Assembly: GCA_015521325.1 (NCBI GenBank)
Contig: WAOK01000005.1
Location: 1 to 60,342, forward strand
Origin: Desulfurococcales archaeon
GTDB lineage: Archaea; Thermoproteota; Thermoprotei_A; Sulfolobales; NBVN01
Length of the DNA: 60,342 nucleotides
Direction: 5' to 3'
Made by a program: the position numbers and the translations under genes. A model generated the notes under the pieces. It worked only from the letters and a program-made list of their open reading frames with translations, had not been told where the DNA came from and did no database searches. Shown here piece by piece: positions 1 through 38,925 of the stretch (its first letter is position 1; every line of letters starts with the position of its first letter).

Positions 1-119
1 GGGCCGGGCATGACAGAAAAGTTACCCCGAGGATAACAGGGTCGTCGCGGGCGAGAGCCCACATCGACCCCGCGGTTTGCTACATCGACGTCGGCTCTTC
101 CCATCCTGGGGGTGCAGCA
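1..119 (+). rRNA. 23S rRNA, partial, exon 1 (domain V)
   Basis: This is the peptidyl-transferase part of domain V. The universal GATAACAGG core lies at 32-40 (E. coli 2447-2455) and the conserved TCGACGTCGGCTC segment follows at about 84-96. The 5' part of the gene lies outside the window. Exon 1 stops after GCAGCA; joining it to the G at 774 restores the normal spacing to the conserved CCCAAGGG motif, which places the junction at about E. coli 2534/2535. The assignment is from recognisable conserved rRNA sequence and is secure. Confidence 0.96.
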
Positions 120-773
120 AGGGGCGAGAGGCAACGAATGACGCTCACTATATAAGGAATTACTAGATGGGGGTCACGGATGGAGTACAGAGTAATATGG
201 CCGAAGACAAGGAAATACCTGGAGGAATACCTAGCAGGCCTCATAGCGGGAGACGGGCAGATAGAGAAAAAGAGAATCACGATAACCGACTCAAGCAAAG
301 AATTCCTCGACGAAGTAGCAACAAGGATGATCAACGTCCTAGGAGTAGAGCCAAGGATACATCAAAGAACTAACGCAAACGCATACTACCTAAGGATATA
401 CGGCATTGGAATAGTCAAGGAGTTCCGACAACTGATAACCGAACTAAAGAGCAGGCCAACACTGAACTTCATACGCGGGTTCTTCGACGCTGAGGGAACA
501 ATAAACGTGGAACAAGGTAAGTACATAGTCATAGAGATAAGCCAGCACGAAGGAACAATAATAGCAAACCTAGCGATAGCACTCAGAGACAGGTGCATAT
601 ACCCCTACATCAGATATCGGGAATACTACGACCCCCGACCCAAGAAAAGAAGAACATACACCCGCTACGTACTCCGCATAAAACGCATGTCCTCAGTCTA
701 CAGGTTCCTAAACAGGGTGGGTGTAAGACACCCCAAACACATATCAAAACTTACGGGCCTCCGCCCCCTGTAA
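120..773 (+). other. Archaeal bulge-helix-bulge intron in 23S rRNA
   Basis: The 654-nt intron interrupts domain V. A bulge-helix-bulge can be drawn directly. The outer helix is 108-112 with 775-779. The four-base-pair centre is 114-117 with 768-771 (one G.U pair). The inner helix is 121-126 with 762-767. The two three-nt bulges are 118-120 (CA^A) and 772-774 (AA^G). Cutting after the second bulge nucleotide gives exactly the exon ends inferred from 23S conservation. Position 113 is a single unpaired extra base. The tRNA/rRNA splicing endonuclease would be expected to remove the intron. It encodes one homing endonuclease. Confidence 0.93.
180..773 (+). CDS. LAGLIDADG homing endonuclease encoded in the 23S intron
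   Basis: The 197-aa protein has two LAGLIDADG motifs, LAGLIAGDG at about 18-26 and a second copy (IRGFFDAEG) at about 98-106, with likely metal-binding acids D25 and E105. This is the single-chain, pseudo-symmetric layout of archaeal rRNA-intron endonucleases such as I-DmoI. Such enzymes cut intron-less 23S alleles and promote intron homing. Both motifs look intact, so the enzyme may be active. The TAA stop is the last three bases of the intron and lies inside the splicing motif. The ATG at 180 is the best start; no clear Shine-Dalgarno sequence is seen, and translation may use the excised intron RNA. Confidence 0.92.
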
Positions 774-19549: not shown

Positions 19550-20133
19550 AGCTCGCATTCATCCCGGAGGCCGAGTCAAGCCTCATCAACCTAGCTAAAG
19601 CGGCTAGGGAATTAGGTTATTCCGCAGTCGGTGTTGAGGGCATCACTGAGCCCGTGAGTATTGAGGGTGTGACGCTCGTACCTAGGCTAACCACCAAGAA
19701 CCTGGCAGCACTCAAGAGATTCGCAGGCCTGAGGGCATACCTCGTCGAGGGCGCCGAAGACCTGAAAGGGTACCCCAAGCTAAGGAGGTTCGCCGACATA
19801 GTCACGGTAACGGATAAGGCGCTGAGGAGGCTGGGCCCGAAGGAAGTGGAAAAGCTTGGTAATCTAGGGCTCCCCATAGAGTTACAGCTCAACCCTATTC
19901 TCCGAGTAATTGTGCAGGGTCAGTGGCTGAGGGGGCTGAGGGCACTGCTCCTCGCTGCGTCGGCGGACAGAGTAAGGCTCGCGGTATCCTCTGGCGGCAC
20001 AAACCCGCGCATTATAAGGCCCATTGAGGTGAAAAGAGCTTTCTTGGAGGTGTTTGGGCTAACTCAATCACACTCTTTTGAGGCAGTAATCACTGTACCA
20101 TCTGATATACTGCCTAGGGTGGTAAAGGGTTGA
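19537..20133 (+). CDS. rnp3: RNase P protein Rpp30 (component 3)
   Basis: The 198-aa PHP/TIM-barrel-like protein resembles Rpp30. It contains DIVTVTDKALRRLG and a C-terminal NPRIIRPIEVKRAFLEVFGL. With Pop5 it stabilises the catalytic domain of RNase P RNA for tRNA 5' processing. The gene order with Pop5 directly after it supports both calls. The start is GTG 19537, inside the previous gene. Confidence 0.87.
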   Translation: MRAVELAFIPEAESSLINLAKAARELGYSAVGVEGITEPVSIEGVTLVPRLTTKNLAALKRFAGLRAYLVEGAEDLKGYPKLRRFADIVTVTDKALRRLGPKEVEKLGNLGLPIELQLNPILRVIVQGQWLRGLRALLLAASADRVRLAVSSGGTNPRIIRPIEVKRAFLEVFGLTQSHSFEAVITVPSDILPRVVKG

Positions 20134-20615
20134 CCGCCGAGTACATTACGCTGGCTGCTGCGGCGGCAGCACTAGCCATCTCTATCGCTTCTCTAGCATA
20201 TGTCTTAATGCTTCGTAAGCGCATTACTGCACTTCTATCGGCGCTCGACTCCAGAGCACTGAGGAGGTACCTAAGGGCCGTGGAGGCTAGGCAGAGGGGG
20301 AGGGACAGGAAGAGGTTCATAGTCTTCAAGCTGCTAGCGGGTAAGGGCCTGGGTAAGGACGAGCTGGAGGGGCTCGTTAGGACGAGTTTCAGACAACTCT
20401 TCGGCACGACAGCCCTCGCGGTGGCTGGTGTGTCAGTGGCGCACTACAACCCGGGGAAAGGAATCGGCGTCCTTAGGGTTAGGGCGACCCACAAGAACCA
20501 CGCCGTACTGGCTTTGGCGGCAATCGATGCATTGACGGACGGAGAGGTAATCGCCCAGCCCCTAAGGACTACGGGCACCCTGAGAAAAGCTATGAAGTAT
20601 GCCGAGGGAGGGTAG
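20130..20615 (+). CDS. rnp2: RNase P protein Pop5 with an N-terminal membrane helix
   Basis: Residues from about 60 on form the Pop5 domain (KRFIVFKLLAGKGLGKDELE, then HYNPGKGIGVLRVRATHKNH). Before it lies a hydrophobic, Ala-rich segment (about 5-28, ending YVLML-RKR) that looks like a signal anchor, followed by a basic helical linker (RRYLRAVEARQRG). The usual archaeal Pop5 is about 120 aa; this is 161. TTG 20130 overlaps the rnp3 TGA, and the open hydrophobic frame argues for this start. The internal ATG near 20208 would remove the membrane segment. The membrane tether is inferred. Confidence 0.75.
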   Translation: MTAEYITLAAAAAALAISIASLAYVLMLRKRITALLSALDSRALRRYLRAVEARQRGRDRKRFIVFKLLAGKGLGKDELEGLVRTSFRQLFGTTALAVAGVSVAHYNPGKGIGVLRVRATHKNHAVLALAAIDALTDGEVIAQPLRTTGTLRKAMKYAEGG

Positions 20616-36573: not shown

Positions 36574-37177
36574 GAGTAAAGAAGTGATAGACGCCTTCCT
36601 CAAGGTCCCCAGAGAAGAGTTCGTGCCCAGGCACCTCAAGAGGCTTGCCTACGCCGACATGCCCCTCCCGATAGGGCATGGACAGACAATAAGCGCCCCT
36701 CACATGGTCGCCATAATGACTGAAGCCCTCGCCCCAAGGAAGGGTAACAAAGTATTGGAGGTCGGGACGGGGAGCGGGTACCAAGCAGCAATACTAGCGG
36801 AAATAGTAGGGGACGAGGGGCATGTCTGGACAATCGAGAGGATACCGGCACTGGCTGAGTTCGCGAGAGAGAACCTTCGCAGAACCTCTTACGCCAGGAG
36901 AGTTACAGTGATAGTCGGTGACGGGAGCAAGGGCTACCCCGATGCGATGCCCTACGACAGGATCATAGTTACTGCTGCAGCTCCAGACGTGCCTGAGCCC
37001 CTCATAGAACAGCTCGCTCCAGGGGGGCGACTAGTTATCCCTGTCGGTGACTCCTTCACTCAGCGTTTACTGATACTCGAGAAGCGCCATGACGGCTCGA
37101 TAATTAAGAGGTGGGGAACCTACTGCGTGTTTGTCCCCTTGATCGGGGAGTACGGTTTTAGGGAAAGGGATCACTGA
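36512..37177 (+). CDS. pcm: Protein-L-isoaspartate O-methyltransferase
   Basis: The 221-aa repair enzyme methylates isoaspartyl residues in aged proteins. Motif I VLEVGTGSGYQAAI (about 80-93), the earlier GHGQTISAPHMVAIM and YDRIIVTAAAPDVPEPLIEQL are diagnostic. Such repair is expected to matter at high temperature. The ATG start lies within the end of the DUF371 gene. Confidence 0.95.
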   Translation: MGFEEERRRLVSKLIREGILKSKEVIDAFLKVPREEFVPRHLKRLAYADMPLPIGHGQTISAPHMVAIMTEALAPRKGNKVLEVGTGSGYQAAILAEIVGDEGHVWTIERIPALAEFARENLRRTSYARRVTVIVGDGSKGYPDAMPYDRIIVTAAAPDVPEPLIEQLAPGGRLVIPVGDSFTQRLLILEKRHDGSIIKRWGTYCVFVPLIGEYGFRERDH

Positions 37178-37266
37178 GGGTCCCACTCATCATTGCTCAG
37201 CCACTAGCGGTTAGCTCATCCCCCGTGGTAATTAGGTGAGTAAGTTATTCATCGTTAACCCGCGCT

Positions 37267-37328
37267 TAGGTCAGATCGTCGCGAGCTCCTCACCGATCAA
37301 AGTCGTCTGGAGCGGCTTCATCATCCCA
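37267..37328 (-). ncRNA. Candidate box C/D sRNA guiding methylation of 23S rRNA
   Basis: The minus strand has a C box ATGATGA (37318-37324), a D'-like TTGA (37297-37300), a C' box GTGAGGA (37287-37293) and a D box CTGA (37271-37274). C' and D are exactly 12 nt apart, as in archaeal dual-guide RNAs. The flanks can form a short terminal stem (UGGG with CCUA). The 12-nt guide before D pairs over its full length, with two G.U pairs, to 23S rRNA at 41-52 of this window; the fifth-nucleotide rule points to U45 (about E. coli 2460). D' is a non-consensus TTGA, and the target of the C/D' guide is not in the window. Confidence 0.68.
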
Positions 37329-37416
37329 TTCAAGGGGGTCTGGGGGCTTAATCAGTGTTGGCTTTGGGGAGATCAAGGATAAACCGCCTGCCGGAAATTG
37401 AGGACGGGCGCGTTCG

Positions 37417-38925
37417 TTGCTCAGGGGGCGCTCATATGGCATATTACTGCACGTAACGTCCCTTCCCTCACCGTTCGGGGTAGGGGATGTGGGGCCAGCG
37501 GCTAGGGAGTTCGTTGAGATACTGAACACGCTGGGTAAGCCGGTCTGGCAGGTTCTCCCCCTGACTCAGACCGGGAGAGCGACGTCCTACTCACCCTACA
37601 GCGGTCCCTCGGCATTCGCTATGAACACCCTCCTAATAAGCCCGGAAGATCTTGCCGAGGAAGGCCTCGTGGACAGGGCTCTTGTAGAGAGGCTGAGGAG
37701 GTCGCCGAGGCCTAGGGCCGAGTACGGGGTTGCTGAGGAAATAAAGGAGAGGGTGGTGGGAGAGGCGTTTAGGCGATTTAAGGAGGATGCTGGTTTGAGG
37801 GGCGCGTTCGAGGCGTTCGTTGAGGCTAATGAGTGGTGGCTGATCGACTACGCGCTGTTCGAGGTGCTGTCCAAGCTCCACGGTGGGAGGTCGTGGGTTG
37901 AGTGGAGGCGGGAGTACAGGGACAGAGAGAGTAGAGCGCTGGATGCTGTGATGAGGGAGCGGAGAGAGGAACTCGAGTACGTGATGTTTAAGCAGTTCCT
38001 GGTGTTCAGGCAGTGGCTCAGGCTGAGGGATCTGGCGAGGCGGTTGGGCATAGTCATAGTGGGGGACATACCCTACTACGTGGATCACAACAGCGCAGAC
38101 GTGTGGGCGAACAGACACCTCTTCAAGCTAGACGAGAAAGGAAGGCCCCTCTACGTGGGAGGGGTGCCGCCGGACTACTTCAGCAGGACTGGGCAGTTGT
38201 GGGGTAACCCCGTCTATGACTGGGGAGCGCACAGGGAGGAGGGTTTCAGGTGGTGGATACTCAGGCTCTCGCACGCGCTCAAGCTCTACGACCTCGTCAG
38301 GCTCGACCACTTCAGGGGATTCATGGCGTACTGGGAGGTGAGGGCTGGCTCGCCAACGGCAGAGAAGGGGAGGTGGGTCAGGGTACCATACGAGGAGTTC
38401 TTTGAGACCCTCGCGCGCTCATTCCCTTCGATGCCCTTCATAGCCGAGGACCTGGGCTTCATAACGGCCGACGTTAGGGAGGTGATGCTGAAGTACTCCC
38501 TCCCTGGCATGAGGGTGCTTGTGTTCGCGTTCTCTGGCAACCCGAGGAACGAGCACCTACCGCATAACCTAGGGAGGAACATGGTCATCTACACCAGCAC
38601 CCACGACACCAACACGGTTCTCGGGTGGTTCACGGATGAGGCCCCGAGGAAGTCGAGGGCTGCACTAAGCAGGTACGTGGGCAAGCGCGTGACCCCTAAG
38701 AACGTCGTTAAGGAGGTAACAAGGCTGGCGATGGCGTCGTCTCCCTCCCTGGCCGTGGTGCAGATGCAGGATGTCTTGATGTTAGGTAGCGAGGCACGAA
38801 TGAACAGGCCGGGCACCTCCAGAGGCAACTGGTTGTGGAGGGCGACATCGATCAGGAGGGAGGACATGGTATGGGTTGCAGAGCTGGCGGAGGTCTACGG
38901 CCGCGTCACTGGGGCCTTAACCTGA
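37417..38925 (+). CDS. malQ: 4-alpha-glucanotransferase (GH77, amylomaltase)
   Basis: The 502-aa enzyme transfers maltooligosaccharide units. N-terminal GILLHVTSLPSPFGVGD, the nucleophile in VRLDHFRG, the acid/base in FIAEDLG and the transition-state Asp in TSTHDTNT are all seen, so it should be active. It is the only obvious glucan enzyme in the window. The TTG at 37417 is the chosen start because it lies directly before the conserved N terminus; no strong Shine-Dalgarno sequence is seen. Confidence 0.95.
   Translation: MLRGRSYGILLHVTSLPSPFGVGDVGPAAREFVEILNTLGKPVWQVLPLTQTGRATSYSPYSGPSAFAMNTLLISPEDLAEEGLVDRALVERLRRSPRPRAEYGVAEEIKERVVGEAFRRFKEDAGLRGAFEAFVEANEWWLIDYALFEVLSKLHGGRSWVEWRREYRDRESRALDAVMRERREELEYVMFKQFLVFRQWLRLRDLARRLGIVIVGDIPYYVDHNSADVWANRHLFKLDEKGRPLYVGGVPPDYFSRTGQLWGNPVYDWGAHREEGFRWWILRLSHALKLYDLVRLDHFRGFMAYWEVRAGSPTAEKGRWVRVPYEEFFETLARSFPSMPFIAEDLGFITADVREVMLKYSLPGMRVLVFAFSGNPRNEHLPHNLGRNMVIYTSTHDTNTVLGWFTDEAPRKSRAALSRYVGKRVTPKNVVKEVTRLAMASSPSLAVVQMQDVLMLGSEARMNRPGTSRGNWLWRATSIRREDMVWVAELAEVYGRVTGALT

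Follow-up and report, generated by a model that had tools for sequence, protein, structure and literature searches.

The window analysed here, a 60,342-nucleotide stretch of DNA from a Desulfurococcales archaeon, carries in the spacer between pcm and malQ two short minus-strand elements with the layout of box C/D sRNA genes, which we call sRNA A and sRNA B, and it also carries a 23S rRNA gene on the plus strand (Table 1). The 23S gene contains an intron-like insertion at about 180-772 (plus strand), whose ORF holds the motif LAGLIAGDG and, to judge from this motif, is typical of LAGLIDADG homing endonucleases.

Table 1. Features of the two sRNA elements and of the rRNA target site within the window
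Feature	Position	Strand	Evidence
Box C/D sRNA gene A	37267..37328	-	homologues 132/165; congener 61/61; sub-threshold Rfam archaeal C/D matches exactly here
C box GATGATGA	37325-37318	-	sequence; TGATG invariant, n=20 homologues
D' guide AGCCGCTCCAGA, core GCCGCTCCA	37306..37317	-	core pairs in 48/49 homologues
D' box position, degenerate CGAC (12-nt spacing)	37302..37305	-	NNGA there in 25/48 homologues
C' box GTGAGGA	37293-37287	-	sequence; TGA of C' invariant, n=20 homologues
D guide GCTCGCGACGAT, 12 nt, predicted target U2460	37286-37275	-	rRNA pairing
D box CTGA	37274-37271	-	invariant, n=20 homologues
TATA-like A+T stretch GATTAAG, possible promoter of A	37347..37353	-	A+T 0.8-0.9 at -30/-29 from the C box, n=49 homologues; weak match in window
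D-guide target in 23S rRNA, base of helix 89, predicted methylated U45	41..52	+	pairing; same sequence in nearly all relatives' 23S examined
Box C/D sRNA B, tandem downstream of A	~37169..37226	-	box layout; weak Rfam C/D matches; conserved in f1
sRNA B D' guide AACCGCTAGTGG, with CTGA	37201-37212	-	sequence
sRNA B D guide GTGGGACCCTCA, with D box GTGA	37175-37186	-	sequence

Comparison with related genomes indicates that 37267-37328 is a real box C/D sRNA gene, conserved across this order of heat-loving archaea. The original prediction had assigned this strand, extent and class to the element, and all three are borne out by the homologues, by the conserved boxes and by an identical copy in a congener. 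The outer boxes match the consensus sequences, RUGAUGA for the C box (ATGATGA, 37324-37318 on the minus strand) and CUGA for the D box (CTGA, 37274-37271), and the C' box, GTGAGGA, departs from the consensus by a single mismatch. The spacing between C' and D is exactly 12 nt, as predicted, in the minus-strand sequence of the window and in most homologues. The claim that all four boxes are present stands for C, C' and D but not for D', which is not canonical: CGAC lies at the 12-nt spacing and ACGA one base earlier, at 11 nt, and the C-D' spacing is thus 12 nt only if the degenerate box is accepted. Likewise, the gap had been described as explained by no gene; sRNA A does lie there, but the gap also holds sRNA B. 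The conserved element is about 61 nt long, inside the 50-70 nt range of archaeal box C/D sRNAs. Only two G-C pairs of the terminal k-turn stem are evident (GG 5' of the C box and CC 3' of the D box), and the plain single-strand fold of the RNA is no better than that of shuffled sequences. The genome encodes fibrillarin and Nop5, whose genes lie side by side on contig C79.

A BLAST search with the spacer gave matches in 29 of 60 relatives, and mostly the aligned part was 37268-37327 of the window alone. A sequence profile found the element in 132 of the 165 genomes of the class and in 58 of 69 genera, nearly always as a single copy, with E-values down to 1.6e-16 and a single match in the present genome (E = 5.5e-16). 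When 20 homologues are aligned, the columns that never vary spell TGATG (C box), GCCGCTCCA, TGA (C' box), TCGCGACGA and CTGA; no conservation is seen outside the boxes and the two guide cores. When the window is compared with a same-genus relative, the two agree at all 61 positions of the element, as opposed to 79% identity for the end of pcm and 67% for the 3' gap. Loss of the boxes in close relatives, proposed earlier as a refuting observation, was therefore not seen. These alignments show sRNA A to be under purifying selection.

The stretch just 5' of sRNA A, to about 37359, is also unchanged in the congener, which would fit a promoter. When the upstream regions of 49 homologues were aligned on the C box, A+T content peaked at -26 to -32, with a maximum of 0.90 at -29; this is where an archaeal TATA box is expected if the transcript starts at the C box. 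In most families sRNA A lies just 3' of pop5, the gene for the Rpp14/Pop5 subunit of RNase P, and Pfam PF01900 matched at 13 tested pop5-linked loci from ten families, one just below the cut-off (pop5-linked loci include L160-L164, L113, L127, L158 and L165-L167). The two genes are so close in the genomes of family f11 that the first TGA of the C box is the stop codon of pop5, and such overlaps have been reported for C/D genes of archaea (Tripp et al. 2017, reviewed in PMC7994747). In some genera of family f1 the element is inverted and convergent with pop5. In the genus of the window, pop5 is found at 20130-20615, about 17 kb from an unchanged sRNA A that now sits between pcm and malQ; thus the element appears to have moved as one unit, with its sequence intact.

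The D guide, GCTCGCGACGAT, pairs with 41-52 of the window (GTCGTCGCGGGC) through ten Watson-Crick and two G.U pairs without any mismatch. Counted from the D box, its fifth base is an A opposite U45; this nucleotide corresponds in alignment to E. coli U2460, giving an A:U2460 pair. This agrees in every respect with the 12-nt guide, the two G.U pairs and the target at about E. coli 2460 that were proposed originally. Among homologues the guide varies (TC changes to CT, CC and others) and most of the changes keep the pairing; an A.C mismatch occurs at position 8 of the duplex in several relatives of families f5 and f7, and a mismatch at position 10 in one locus (L163). Our literature search, which included the text of PMC4644070, found no report of a 2'-O-methylated U2460.

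A second guide, directed at the P-loop and G2251, was missed in the original prediction, and its target lies outside the window. Wherever the 23S P-loop of a relative was read, the D' guide core GCCGCTCCA pairs with a 9-nt stretch of it, UGGGGCGGC, and the duplex has 9-10 bp with an inner G.U pair. If a 12-nt register is assumed for D', the fifth guide base counted from D' is a C opposite E. coli G2251, forming a C:G2251 pair. G2251 is the nucleotide that pairs with the CCA end of the P-site tRNA. Neither a 16S gene nor a full 23S gene including the P-loop was found in the assembly of the window's own genome, and therefore the P-loop match rests on the 23S genes of relatives. Core variants found in other families (GCCGTCCCA, GCTGCCCCA and GTCGCTCCA) represent C/U changes opposite a G of the rRNA; like GCCGCTCCA, they pair with the P-loop in full, and only the place of the G.U pair shifts. 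Of 49 homologues, 48 pair completely; only a divergent second copy (L151) does not. This copy, found in a genome of family f2, retains its C box and a largely intact P-loop guide (one mismatch), and its other guide is changed.

Methylation of G2251 is less certain in this genus than that of U2460, because the D' box is degenerate here; it also appears less certain than in another genus of the same family (g10), in which D' reads CTGA. It might be that in this genus only the D guide methylates, and that the D' side, its box lost, is an anchor to the P-loop or a folding chaperone. The CGAC at the 12-nt spacing in the window would fit this, as would the 23 of 48 homologues that keep the guide core without an NNGA at this spacing (the other 25 do have one at precisely that distance from the C box). 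However, the core is able to pair in 48 of 49 homologues, those with a poor D' included, and internal boxes are often imperfect; we consider this explanation unlikely, if worth bearing in mind.

The variation of the guides also bears on whether the main targets are something other than rRNA, for example tRNA or mRNA, with the rRNA pairing being incidental. Some archaeal guides do have non-rRNA targets (PMC7994747), and in most homologues of sRNA A both cores set a U against an rRNA G at a place where a C would pair better. Against this, the wobble shifts between neighbouring positions across lineages while the same two rRNA sites remain paired. The two sites are also close to the peptidyl-transferase centre, and bacteria and eukaryotes are known to methylate G2251. 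Both target sites are present in the 23S genes of relatives and hardly vary, and guide changes that keep pairing with near-invariant rRNA sites are what would be expected if both sites are real targets. Non-rRNA main targets thus seem improbable to us.

Two further readings concern whether there is an RNA gene at all. A minus-strand ORF at 37290-37529, ending in PPDPLEWDDEAAPDDFDR, does exist and its end overlaps sRNA A, but we reject the idea that the stretch is the end of a small protein as highly improbable: the ORF overlaps the start of malQ, length differences between the guides of homologues are not multiples of three, and homologues have only box and guide letters in common, in a sequence that is kept in many different contexts. 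As for chance, sRNA A is the sole instance of the pattern RTGANGA-N12-CTGA on either strand of the 60-kb window. The guide match had been thought hard to get by chance, and random 12-mers from the window do match the 23S exons equally well in only 18 of 6000 draws (0.3%); yet 3 of the 564 CTGA sites in the window adjoin an equally good 23S-exon match, so that the guide match alone is only moderately improbable. It is conservation among the genomes compared that provides the decisive evidence for sRNA A, the guide match by itself being suggestive. Matches of 12 nt that include two G.U pairs are not uncommon in themselves, but a chance resemblance of boxes and guide in unused spacer is refuted by the order-wide conservation and the compensating guide changes, which leave it a negligible probability.

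Taken as the best explanation of 37267-37328, with a probability of about 0.88, sRNA A is a double-guide box C/D sRNA with predicted methylation at U2460 and G2251. We infer that the element is transcribed as a minus-strand RNA of about 60 nt, which would bind L7Ae, Nop5 and fibrillarin; the D guide would then pair with the beginning of helix 89 in 23S rRNA, leading to 2'-O-methylation of U2460, and the D' guide with the P-loop of helix 80, leading to methylation of G2251. In this way the two guides very probably direct methylation beside the catalytic centre of the ribosome, at the P-loop and at the base of helix 89. More speculatively, a single sRNA might tether the P-loop to the base of helix 89 while the 50S subunit assembles, and methylate the two; the peptidyl-transferase centre would then depend on sRNA A for its folding, and the usual position of this sRNA beside pop5 might tie its supply to RNA-processing genes; we regard this extended scenario as doubtful.

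At the Rfam gathering score, no match was obtained at the sRNA A locus or at 16 related loci, one tRNA aside. The best sub-threshold matches lie exactly over the element and are to snoPyro_CD (RF00095), sR23 (RF01138) and sR5 (RF01304), with which sRNA A has the box architecture in common; all score far below gathering (at best 23.3 versus 45 bits), and sRNA A is therefore not a member of these families. The archaeal methylation-guide C/D sRNAs described in the text of Dennis et al. (2015, PMC4644070) resemble it in length, in the C/D and C'/D' layout, in 12-nt guides, in the N-plus-five target rule and in having two guides to rRNA. The same text reports guides to G2251 (alignment position G2520) predicted in three of seven archaeal species, and hence sRNA A belongs to an already known RNA type, of which it is a well-supported fresh example. 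That text does not, by contrast, describe a G2251 guide combined with a U2460 guide in one sRNA, nor the conservation of this combination across the order, although the supplementary sRNA tables of the paper may already list a Sulfolobus orthologue. G2251 is methylated in both bacteria and eukaryotes (PMC11542601). In E. coli the same nucleotide is the substrate of RlmB, which is a protein-only enzyme, and in Arabidopsis a C/D snoRNP acts on the equivalent 25S Gm2620, with eukaryotic guide RNAs that differ from sRNA A (PMC11542601). The sources conflict over Gm1950 of H. marismortui, which is equated with E. coli G2251 in PMC11542601 and with E. coli 1909 in PMC2584109, where no Gm2251 is listed for haloarchaea.

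Predicted archaeal methylation sites are mostly unshared, with about 17% common to more than one species in the seven-species comparison of PMC4644070. A guide pair that targets two parts of the peptidyl-transferase centre and is kept in at least ten families would point to two modifications seldom lost among these heat-loving archaea. With the sRNA A profile the gene could also be annotated in about 80% of this class's genomes; Rfam flags nothing at the loci tested.

The neighbouring sRNA B has a C' box ATGATGA and a degenerate C box, and its D box and D guide overlap the end of pcm, including the stop codon. It is conserved in family f1, and Rfam gives weak C/D matches only. The D' guide matches 23S CCACUGGCGG, with a predicted target near E. 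coli U1841, and displays the same kind of wobble shift among lineages (GCTAG, GTCAG, GCCAG). For the D guide no convincing rRNA target was found; its best candidate, GAGGGCCCCA in the 23S around E. coli position 1983, includes an A.C mismatch. In other families (L206-L214) the D' guide is joined to varying second guides, which looks like guide shuffling, judging from the loci compared. In several relatives of family f1, sRNA A and sRNA B are divergent neighbours instead of lying in tandem.
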